From: Bradyrhizobium sp. CCBAU 051011
Lineage (GTDB): Bacteria; Pseudomonadota; Alphaproteobacteria; Rhizobiales; Xanthobacteraceae
Assembly (NCBI RefSeq): GCF_009930815.1
Contig: NZ_CP022222.1
Location: forward strand, 4,072,501 to 4,136,500
Direction: 5' to 3'
DNA length: 64,000 bases
In this document: piece by piece, positions 55,121 to 64,000 of the stretch
Numbering within the stretch: position 1 is the first letter of the stretch
How the letters are laid out: each line of letters starts with the position of its first letter
Notes under the pieces: model-generated
Told to the model about the DNA's origin: nothing
What the model saw: the letters and a program-made list of their open reading frames with translations, nothing else
The model's database searches: none
Translations under genes and position numbers: made by a program

Positions 55121-56171
55121 TGTGCATGTTCACTAATTCGCTGATTGGATCGCTCCTCTGGAGGACGATCCGATGCGCGACAATAGCTACGACCGGACGA
55201 TTGAACGCAACTATCTGCAGAAGTGGCGGTTTCTGATCCCGGAATATGAGGCGGTGAAGGCTGGTCGATCCCCGCTGTTCAAGCGGGTCGGCGACTTCTA
55301 CCGCCATCACGGGACCTGCTCGCAGACCTTCCGCAAGTATTACAATCGCTATCTGCAGAGCGGTGAGGAAGCGGACCTGCTGCCGCGCCGGCGCGGGCCC
55401 AAATGGCGGGAACGGCGCGAGCCGGAAGGGATCGAGGCGGAGATCGTCGCCCACCGCAGGCGGGGGATGAACCGCTACGAGATTCATGCCGTCTTGCGTG
55501 AGAAGCGCGACACGGTACCTTCGCCCGTAACGATCTACCGGGTGCTGAGACGCTACCAGCTGAACCGCCGCACGGTGGCGATGCGTGAGGAGAAACGTCG
55601 CATTATCAAGGACAAGCTCGGGGAGCTGGGCCACGTCGATCTGCATCAATTGCCGCGCGATATGTTCCTCGCGCCACCCCCGGTCACGGCCTACATCATC
55701 AGCCTGATCGACAGCTGCTCGCGGCTGGCCTGGGCCGAGGTCCTGACGTCCAAGAAGGCGCTGCCGGTCATGTTCAAGACCCTGAAGATGATCAACACCC
55801 TCAACGTCACCTATGGGCTCGTCTTCCAGGAAATCCTGTCCGACAACGGCGCCGAGTTCGCCGCCCGCACCAAGCCGGACGAGCATCCGTTCGAGGCCAT
55901 GCTGCTCGAGCTTGGCATCAAACACCGCTACTCCAGGCCCTATCGACCGCAGACCAATGGCAAGGTCGAACGCTTCTGGCGCACCCTCGACGAGGACGTT
56001 ATCGAGGGCGCCACCTTCGACAATCTCGATCACTTTGCCAACGAACTGTTCGAGTACCTAATCTACTACAACAACCACAGGCCCCATCAGGCCTTGGCGG
56101 GGCAAACTCCCAAGGCCTTCGCCGCTACCAAGACCACTGCGATCCAATCAGCGAATTAGTGAACATCGACA
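55121..56171 (+). mobile_element. IS481-family insertion sequence, 1051 bp
   Basis: The ends are 33-bp inverted repeats (55121-55153 and 56139-56171) that differ at only two adjacent positions: both start TGT, then GC against CG, then a common ATGTTCACTAATTCG run. They are flanked by the 5-bp direct repeat GCAAT (55116-55120 and 56172-56176). One transposase gene fills the interior. The element looks complete and recent. Confidence 0.93.
55173..56159 (+). CDS. IS481-family transposase
   Basis: The 328-aa protein has an N-terminal HTH region (SPLFKRVGDFYRHHGTCSQT) and a DDE integrase core: first Asp in LGHVDLHQLPRDMFLAP, second in LSDNGAEFAARTKPDEHPF, and Glu in PQTNGKVERFWRTLDEDV. It catalyses transposition of the surrounding element. 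The reading frame is intact, and its stop codon lies inside the right inverted repeat. GAGG precedes the ATG. Confidence 0.93.
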   Translation: MRDNSYDRTIERNYLQKWRFLIPEYEAVKAGRSPLFKRVGDFYRHHGTCSQTFRKYYNRYLQSGEEADLLPRRRGPKWRERREPEGIEAEIVAHRRRGMNRYEIHAVLREKRDTVPSPVTIYRVLRRYQLNRRTVAMREEKRRIIKDKLGELGHVDLHQLPRDMFLAPPPVTAYIISLIDSCSRLAWAEVLTSKKALPVMFKTLKMINTLNVTYGLVFQEILSDNGAEFAARTKPDEHPFEAMLLELGIKHRYSRPYRPQTNGKVERFWRTLDEDVIEGATFDNLDHFANELFEYLIYYNNHRPHQALAGQTPKAFAATKTTAIQSAN

Positions 56172-62149: not shown

Positions 62150-63142
62150 TCATTCTCGGCCGACTGCTGCGCGGCGCAGCCGGTCGTTAATGGCTTCGCC
62201 CAATCCCTCGTCCGGGATGGGCATCACTGCGATGGTGCGCGCCCCCTTGGCGTCGAGCGCGCGAAGATGGCCGAACAGGTTGGCGGCGGCCTCGTCGAGA
62301 TCGCCGCGCTCCGACAGATTCATCACGTGAGAGGCGGCGTCAATTCCCGAAATTGCTCCGAGCCCGAACGCGAGCAATGCTTCGCCGGGCTCGAGCCCGA
62401 CCGCGTTCAGCCGGACACGCGCGCGCGGTGCGTAGTGCGAGGCCAGCATGCCCGGCGCCAGCGGCTGCCCGTTGTCGCTTTCGGCATCAGCCGGCGGCTG
62501 CGCAAGGGCGCGGCCGAGCACGCGCTCAATCTCGGCGCGCGGCAGGCCGCCGGGTCGCAGCAGCATCGGCTCGCCAAAGCAGCCGACGATGGTCGATTCA
62601 ACGCCGACCTCGACCGCGCCGCCGTCGACGATCAGGTCGATCCGCCCTGCGAGGTCGCTCTGCACATGGGCGGCCGCGGTCGGTGAGACGTGGCCCGAAA
62701 TGTTCGCGGATGGCGCCACCACCGGGCCGCCGAACACGCGCAGAATGTCGCGTGCGATCCTGTGGGCAGGGATGCGGACCGCGACCGTATCAAGGCCCGC
62801 GGTCGCGAGATCAGCGACCGCGCAATCTTCCGTCTTCGGCAGCACCAGCGTCAGCGGACCCGGCCAGAACGCTTCGGCCAGCGCCGCCGCCGCGGCGTCA
62901 AAACGGGCGATCAGTCGCGCGGCGGTGATATCACCGACATGGGCGATCAGCGGGTTGAAGGCCGGCCGGCCCTTGGCCTGGTAGAGGCGGGCGATCGCGG
63001 CCGGATTGGTGGCGTCGGCGCCGAGGCCGTAGACGGTCTCGGTCGGGAACGCGACCAGCCCGCCTGCCGCCAGCGCGCGCGCGGCAGCCACCACGGCGGT
63101 CTCGCTGGCGGGCAAAATCTGGGTTTTCAGACCAACATTCAC
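62150..63142 (-). CDS. sua5: L-threonylcarbamoyladenylate synthase (Sua5 type)
   Basis: The 330-aa protein makes threonylcarbamoyl-AMP for tRNA t6A37. The YrdC domain shows LVAFPTETVYGLGADATNPA, the Lys-Arg motif YQAKGRPAFNPLIAHV, and VVAPSANISGHVSPTAAAHV. A C-terminal Sua5 domain (about residues 230-330) is present. A GTG at 63142 (VNVGLKTQILPAS) was chosen; the longer frame upstream runs through the tRNA gene antisense and is spurious. It heads the cluster of oxidase, GNAT and nudK genes. Confidence 0.9.
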   Translation of the reverse strand: MNVGLKTQILPASETAVVAAARALAAGGLVAFPTETVYGLGADATNPAAIARLYQAKGRPAFNPLIAHVGDITAARLIARFDAAAAALAEAFWPGPLTLVLPKTEDCAVADLATAGLDTVAVRIPAHRIARDILRVFGGPVVAPSANISGHVSPTAAAHVQSDLAGRIDLIVDGGAVEVGVESTIVGCFGEPMLLRPGGLPRAEIERVLGRALAQPPADAESDNGQPLAPGMLASHYAPRARVRLNAVGLEPGEALLAFGLGAISGIDAASHVMNLSERGDLDEAAANLFGHLRALDAKGARTIAVMPIPDEGLGEAINDRLRRAAVGRE

Positions 63143-63211
63143 TGTGATTAATTTCCTTAATTCGGCTGCTTGCGGTCGCCGAAACCCAAGGCTATAAGCC
63201 GCGTTCCAAGT

Positions 63212-63288
63212 CGGAGTGTGGCTCAGCCCGGTAGAGCACTGCGTTCGGGACGCAGGGGTCGCAGGTTCGAATCCTGCCACTCCGACCA
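63212..63288 (+). tRNA. tRNA-Pro, anticodon CGG
   Basis: The 77-nt gene folds as a cloverleaf. The acceptor stem is CGGAGTG / CACTCCG, the anticodon stem-loop is CTGCG-TTCGGGA-CGCAG with anticodon CGG, and the T arm is GCAGG-TTCGAAT-CCTGC. The CCA end is encoded. It is divergent from sua5 and is the likely integration site of the downstream integrase gene. Confidence 0.95.
63261..63288. other. Likely attL core: 3' part of tRNA-Pro
   Basis: Tyrosine recombinases of this type insert at the 3' end of a tRNA gene and leave the gene intact. The stretch from GCAGGTTCGAATCCTGCC to the CCA end is the expected core. A direct repeat of it should lie beyond the right edge of the window. Confidence 0.5.
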
Positions 63289-63296
63289 TGAAATTC

Positions 63297-64000
63297 TTAT
63301 GCTTTTCGTCTTTTTTCACGATAGGCAGCCAAGTCAACCCCGGGAATAACCCCAGATACGCTGTTCTCCTTTGGTTTCGATGTGATTGCGGTGGCCGCGT
63401 CGCGTAAGAACTCCGGATGGTGATGGCCGTAGGTGTCGAGCAGAACCTCGACGGACATGCCGAGGAACCCGGCCGCTTTCCAGGGATCAGCCCCGCGCTG
63501 CATCAGCCTCGTTGCAGCCGTGTGCCGCAAGGTGTGGGGCGTGACCTTTCCCTGCTCGGTGGATAGGCGCGCAAGCCTGACCGCACTCCGGGATCCGGTC
63601 TTCACGGATTTCACGGCCGCTCCATTGAACTCAACGAAGTGCGATATGATTGCATCCGTTCGAACCCAGCGCCGCATATGTGCGAGCAGGCGATCGGGTA
63701 ATGGCGCCGGTGGCTGGCGCTTCTTGGTGCCTGTCTGACCCTGTGCAAGCCGGTAGAAGATGCCGTGCTCCAGATCGACATATGATCGACCTTCATCGCG
63801 ATACGGCGACGCGGATGCGATGGCGCCGGCACGCGTGCCCGTGTAGAGGCCAATCAGGATGAAGCGTGCGATATGACGCAGCGGACGCCTATCCGTTTCT
63901 ATTTTCTGATTTTTCAAGGCGCCGCGATGTTGCGTCTGCACCTCGCGATATCGCCAGCAGGTCCACAAAAGAGCAGCCGCTTCGCTGCGGGTTAGCCATC
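63297..64000 (-). CDS. Tyrosine recombinase (site-specific integrase), runs off right edge
   Basis: The visible C-terminal 234 codons form the catalytic domain of a phage-type integrase: the first Arg in [17 protein letters not shown], the H-x-L-R-H motif in [18 protein letters not shown], and the tyrosine in [17 protein letters not shown]. Downstream of the stop there are only 8 bp to the tRNA-Pro end. The reading frame stays open to the window edge ([15 protein letters not shown] at the visible N-terminus), so the gene is partial by truncation of the window, not by mutation. It marks a genomic island or prophage lying to the right. Confidence 0.92.

Follow-up and report, generated by a model that had tools for sequence, protein, structure and literature searches.

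Islander recognizes tRNA-gene islands by a signature comprising a tDNA, a displaced fragment of it, and an integrase gene, and includes an anticodon-centred class, according to the available portion of the source (PMC4383910). In Bradyrhizobium, a symbiosis integrative and conjugative element (symICE) of 0.33 Mb at tRNA-Pro (PMC9174649) and a tRNA-Pro ICE (PMC9239051) are mentioned in the accessible parts of two reports. In Mesorhizobium, ICEs devoid of symbiosis genes are placed at tRNA-Pro and tRNA-Met in the excerpted text of a third report (PMC8627217). The locus analyzed here, in Bradyrhizobium sp. CCBAU 051011, resembles the 3′-fragment, anticodon-centred islands in having an intact tDNA, a displaced 3′ fragment in the same orientation, an integrase aboard, and a length of less than 200 kb, and nothing essential separates it from tRNA-gene islands as the available Islander text defines them (PMC4383910). 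With the Bradyrhizobium tRNA-Pro ICE and symICE it shares the genus, the target (the likeness is by tRNA type), and an integrase adjoining an att site, although these elements are conjugative and one, of 0.33 Mb, carries symbiosis genes in the parts of the reports at hand (PMC9239051, PMC9174649), whereas a TrbI fragment was all that was found in the island. The Mesorhizobium ICEs related to ICEMlSymR7A likewise combine tRNA-targeting integrases with a trb-type gene, which is a remnant in the island, but the conserved conjugation backbone that the excerpt attributes to them was not found there (PMC8627217).

The window, which designates the whole 64,000-nucleotide stretch analyzed, corresponds to G000:C1:4072501-4136500, G000 being the 9.10-Mb genome of strain CCBAU 051011, assembled as a single contig. 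The only tRNA gene detected in the window by ARAGORN was an intact tRNA-Pro(CGG) gene (positions 63212-63288, + strand), which is the integration target and the left edge of the island. To its left, and outside the island, lies a threonylcarbamoyl-AMP synthase gene of the Sua5/YrdC type (62150-63139, − strand; PF01300 and PF03481). This gene is a conserved chromosomal neighbour of the tRNA gene; the segment comprising both (tsaC-tRNA), used as a query against 146 genomes of the same genus, was matched in 145. To the right, the 3′ part of a tyrosine integrase gene (63297-64000, − strand; Phage_integrase, PF00589) faces the tRNA gene. The first-pass annotation had reported 8 bp between the end of the intact tRNA gene (63288) and the integrase stop codon (63297-63299) and a reading frame leaving the window; both points were confirmed, the whole gene (G000:C1:4135797-4137044, − strand; L004:297-1544) encoding 415 residues with a Phage_integrase match. 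Farther left in the window, a 328-aa ORF (55173-56159, + strand) looks by eye like an IS-type transposase.

A second ORF (L004:1370-1747, − strand), outside the window, overlaps the integrase start and is excisionase-like. It was kept in the six close carriers compared. Homology at E ≤ 0.001 was detected for 964 of 1005 candidates, and 5 of the 120 listed were named excisionase by their source; its Pfam match was below the cut-off only, and NCBIfam gave no match.

The tRNA 3′ end had been predicted to recur, in the same direction, to the right of the window. Searching the genome with window positions 63000-64000 located this repeat at G000:C1:4286516-4286567 (+ strand). This displaced copy of the tRNA 3′ half, attR, matches the 52-bp attL core (63238-63289, + strand), which extends one base past the tRNA 3′ half, in the same orientation with one mismatch. 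The single difference is at tRNA position 31, and the copies are identical at positions 32 to 78 (47 in a row); position 32 is, as we read it, the last anticodon-stem pair, and position 78 is the first base past the tRNA. The second copy is judged to lie far beyond chance, since at E ≤ 0.001 the genome has just one other match of tRNA-Pro, located in a tRNA-Trp gene at 74-76% identity. Apart from a 28-base match on the opposite strand with 5 mismatches, the 180 kb searched contained no other repeat of the tRNA 3′ half. The repeat bounds 150.8 kb (150,778 bp measured between the right-hand ends of the two copies, G000:C1:4135790-4286567). The G+C content of this interval is 59.35%, versus 63.67% to the left of the tRNA gene and 62.07% in the 28.9 kb to the right, the right flank being plain chromosomal DNA in CCBAU 051011. 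The locus thus combines an intact tRNA gene and a same-orientation displaced 3′ fragment, as in tRNA-located genomic islands, with a tyrosine integrase inside the interval that adjoins one att site.

Twenty of the 145 matched tRNA-Pro loci were fetched and inspected for site occupancy. In seven of them (L043, L044, L045, L046, L047, L050, and L052), the DNA found after attR in CCBAU 051011 directly follows an intact tRNA gene; in L045 (genome G114), this likeness begins with the base next to the tRNA and extends over 1.5 kb at 87% identity. Relatives therefore offer the empty site that had been sought for a tRNA-located island. The outcome named beforehand as contrary to this reading, namely no repeat within about 200 kb together with one and the same gene order in every relative, did not arise. 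As far as sequence comparison goes, integration at tRNA-Pro is demonstrated by the displaced repeat and the empty sites, which delimit an island bounded by attL and attR. The proposal of a tRNA-integrated island with its left edge at the end of the window and acquired DNA to the right is borne out by the same evidence.

In three other loci (L048, L053, and L057), the tRNA gene is followed by an integrase of the focal type, and in L051 by a more distant relative. Contiguous likeness to the island ends about 2 kb from the tRNA gene in the first three loci and sooner in L051; L053 additionally contains two patches (0.9 and 0.65 kb, 71-76% identity) resembling the polymerase/SRAP part of the island. 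Since similarity ends so close to the tRNA gene and resumes only in the patches of L053, the cargo following the same integrase is judged to be largely, although not wholly, different between strains. In L054 (G137) and L055 (G102), at about 1137-2262, the tRNA gene is followed within 100 bp by DNA located 21 kb to the right of attR in CCBAU 051011, presumably the hemC region by protein reading. Because the tRNA gene adjoins this distant DNA in two genomes, the 21 kb to the right of attR are themselves considered variable in the genus. The seven remaining loci include those of G038 and G025, which have lineage-B integrase matches.

The displaced tRNA half was present in seven of the eight integrase carriers examined; none was found in the draft genome G150, which carries the integrase. 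A copy covering tRNA positions 32 to 78 at ≥90% identity was found in none of the seven empty-site genomes; the lesser matches there were one of 45 bases at 84% in G087 and short ones of 28 and 23 bases in G114 and G087. The displaced copies start to match at tRNA positions 27 to 32, at the edge of the anticodon loop. Five of the seven have in common the inner arm ATAAC[T/C]GG, as would be expected for an attP arm; G031 and G148 (L122) do not have it. Two displaced tRNA-Pro halves occur 4.3 kb apart in G148 (B. cytisi CTAW11, C68:69192-69241 and 73469-73515), which we read as stacked or remnant elements.

The closest named relative of the integrase is that of Bradyrhizobium jicamae PAC68 (95% identity). 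Among 39 integrase loci from named genomes, all six at ≥85% identity adjoin tRNA-Pro(CGG) at the spacing found in the window, 11 bases from the match with the stop codon counted. The 33 others comprise 15 with tRNA-Met(CAT) within 108 bp, two with tRNA-Thr within 85 bp, two (32-33% identity) with tRNA-Pro(CGG) at 289-325 bp, and 14 with no tRNA gene within 325 bp. In a quick tree from which L081, L095, and L101 were omitted, and in which L067 and L092 are long branches whose positions mean little, the lineage-A Pro group forms a clade (support 1.0, L067 excluded); the integrase reading frame of L067 is broken in the copy from the same genome. This clade lies next to the Met-targeting integrase L069, surrounded by relatives that mostly target tRNA-Met, and the second Pro group stands apart. 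Since the two Pro groups are separate on this tree, integrases in the sample seem to have come to use tRNA-Pro(CGG) on two or more occasions.

The active-site residues of the integrase family are kept: in the best 120 of 5290 homologues, the five residues were conserved in 120 (Arg), 120 (Lys), 120 (His), 118 (Arg), and 118 (Tyr) sequences. At the position where tyrosine recombinases usually carry His or Trp, Met (Met363 in the focal integrase) was present in 117 of the same best 120. In the residue alignment, which took in 36 of the 39 loci, this position was occupied by Met (32), Thr (3), or a gap (1), and the first His position by His (31), Gln (4), or Tyr (1). The Met residue is characteristic of the family and does not represent damage.

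The use of the tRNA gene in the genus was assessed by counting integrase matches within 8 kb of it. The tRNA position was available for 142 of the 146 genomes; G136 had no match, and no listed match reached the tRNA in G045, G073, and G090. An integrase match was present near tRNA-Pro in at least 41 of the 142 genomes, a lower bound, as 48 integrase rows were chosen by eye among the matches listed, and one that takes in CCBAU 051011 itself and short partial matches (e.g., of 39 to 61 residues in G091, G036, G043, and G011). All the listed matches point at the tRNA gene and belong to one of two lineages, some of them being remnants. Eighteen of these genomes have a match at ≥60% identity within 120 bp of the tRNA gene; in the rest, the matches are mostly 37-42% identical at about 250-430 bp or farther, or are short pieces. 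On these counts, tRNA-Pro(CGG) is an integration hotspot for integrases of two lineages. To the right of the displaced copy, G031 and G151 carry a C-terminal portion of a lineage-B integrase (79% and 90-96% identical, respectively, to L100), an arrangement read as one element standing before another; no such lineage-B integrase was found to the right of the five other copies examined.

We considered whether the interval might instead be an intact self-transmissible ICE, such as a tRNA-Pro symbiosis ICE. The tRNA-Pro ICEs and the 0.33-Mb tRNA-Pro symICE reported in Bradyrhizobium, as the accessible text presents them (PMC9174649, PMC9239051), lend this reading some plausibility, as does a TrbI match (PF03743) inside the island. 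However, this match falls in a 130-aa frame with a stop codon inside it, indicating a fragment, and a whole-genome search for VirB4/TrbE (PF03135) and the coupling protein (PF02534), both of which an ICE would carry inside the element, gave matches only at 7.916-7.921 Mb and none in the island. Moreover, no nodulation or nitrogenase domain was found among the 69 of the 135 called island ORFs scanned with Pfam, and we regard the ICE reading as improbable. The one relaxase family searched, PF03432, had no match anywhere in the genome, so that this result is not specific to the island. As VirB4/TrbE and the coupling protein occur only elsewhere in the genome, the island probably cannot transfer itself; it is probably a decayed or non-autonomous element.

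Other TrbI matches were located at 7.91 Mb (477-aa frame) and 5.43 Mb (220-aa frame). The former belongs to a trb-type conjugation cluster (G000:C1:7909669-7921089) with frames of 477 aa for TrbI, 939 aa for TrbE/VirB4, and 679 aa for the coupling protein; between 7.84 and 7.96 Mb, no integrase of the query lineages was detected at E ≤ 0.05, and tRNA-Trp was the sole tRNA gene. A recent origin of the island TrbI fragment from this cluster found no support, the DNA match being only 108 bp at 70% identity. The match at 5.43 Mb (G000:C1:5433668-5434084) possibly marks another decayed element.

An integrated prophage or phage satellite would account for a P4-type primase fragment with a D5_N domain (L009:6559-7383), which was above the Pfam cut-off and below the NCBIfam primase cut-off. 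No structural or packaging family was detected beyond chance among the Pfam-scanned proteins, the lone Terminase_5 match falling on the helix-turn-helix of a transposase, and the length of the island and its catabolic cargo also speak against a phage origin, which is highly improbable. Finally, integrase remnants are commonly found next to tRNA genes, so that the integrase could adjoin tRNA-Pro by chance, with no island at all. The displaced repeat, the empty sites, and the joint presence of integrase and displaced copy in different strains make such a coincidence scarcely credible. With high confidence, we therefore retain the interpretation of a 150.8-kb island that its own tyrosine integrase inserted at tRNA-Pro(CGG) and that is probably decayed or non-autonomous. 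In the proposed mechanism, a circular form bearing a copy of the tRNA 3′ half would recombine with the chromosomal tRNA gene, so that a whole tRNA gene would stand at the left edge and the 3′ half present beforehand would end up at the right one. The most likely place of the crossover is the anticodon loop. Excision would involve the integrase and the excisionase-like protein, and transfer might proceed with outside help.

The DNA to the right of the window had been expected to carry novel genes. This expectation found little support, as the cargo that was typed (69 of the 135 island ORFs delineated by a crude home-made caller, plus the excisionase-like ORF, scanned with Pfam) consists mostly of familiar catabolic, transport, and transposase genes. 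The left end encodes a Crp-type regulator, a sulfatase, a formylglycine-generating enzyme (FGE), an SAM synthetase, and an SulP transporter. Additional cargo comprises molybdenum hydroxylase subunits, a dihydroxyacetone kinase set (Dak1, Dak2, and a PEP-utilising enzyme), branched-chain transporter genes, a Y-family polymerase and SRAP, cyclase/AAA proteins, DUF3604, and transposases. The right end encodes both subunits of a ring-hydroxylating dioxygenase, an SDR, an acyl-CoA dehydrogenase, an AMP-binding enzyme, and a TetR regulator. Comparison of 10 proteins with PADLOC for defence functions gave one weak match (22 bits). Two further proteins were noted: a Sll1717-family P-loop ATPase above the NCBIfam cut-off (L004:14215-15942, − strand), which has a weak PADLOC match to mad8, and a TIGR04141/DUF6119 protein above the cut-off (L009:8674-9621, + strand), for which only the later half of the profiles was matched.

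The cargo looks like a mosaic, and the 150.8 kb may have been acquired in more than one step. The right 15.7 kb (dioxygenase, acyl-CoA, and transporter genes) are collinear with chromosomal places in G114, G054, and G019 (86-90% identity) and mostly with one in G137; the first three of these genomes have an empty tRNA-Pro site. The left 10.6 kb (sulfatase/FGE/SAM-synthetase) are collinear with a chromosomal place in G114 (87.6%). The dioxygenase gene is present at ≥84% identity in 32 of the 146 genomes, CCBAU 051011 counted. In the dioxygenase tree, the focal copy groups with G054 (0.963) and G012 (0.937), whereas CCBAU 051011 groups with G001 and G114 (0.964) in the tree of the tsaC-tRNA core segment; compared with G001, the dioxygenase is 85.9% identical and the core segment 93.0%. 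Since the two trees conflict, the dioxygenase gene was probably acquired laterally from another member of the genus, and the terminal operon to which it belongs probably spread among Bradyrhizobium. The same conflict, between one cargo gene and one core segment, disfavours vertical descent of the right-end operon followed by a later move. For the FGE gene, G001 and G114 show 82% identity, as against 92-93% for the core segment. A 6.6-kb transporter block in the middle of the island is matched in two integrase carriers, G001 (93% identity) and G103 (79% over 5 kb). In the remaining 10 of the 12 genomes searched, among them the carrier G120, its match is much weaker. Part of the cargo may therefore be old in the element, given that two carriers share this block.

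Islands of this kind are well known, Bradyrhizobium elements at tRNA-Pro have already been published, and knowledge of tRNA-targeting islands is left unchanged. Three features go slightly past routine: the use of the hotspot by two lineages, an integrase family that bears Met, and a likely traffic of catabolic operons inside the genus. For CCBAU 051011, the exact attL and attR and the natural empty sites allow acquired and core DNA to be separated at this place. A more tentative idea, which we hold to be rather doubtful, is that the island acts as a shuttle for whole operons of the genus: at a single tRNA gene, catabolic operons would be picked up and redistributed among Bradyrhizobium lineages by an integrase/excisionase cassette that conserves little beyond itself. 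For the genus, the hotspot, with variable cargo following one constant integrase/excisionase cassette, offers a tidy case for the exchange of catabolic operons among soil bacteria.
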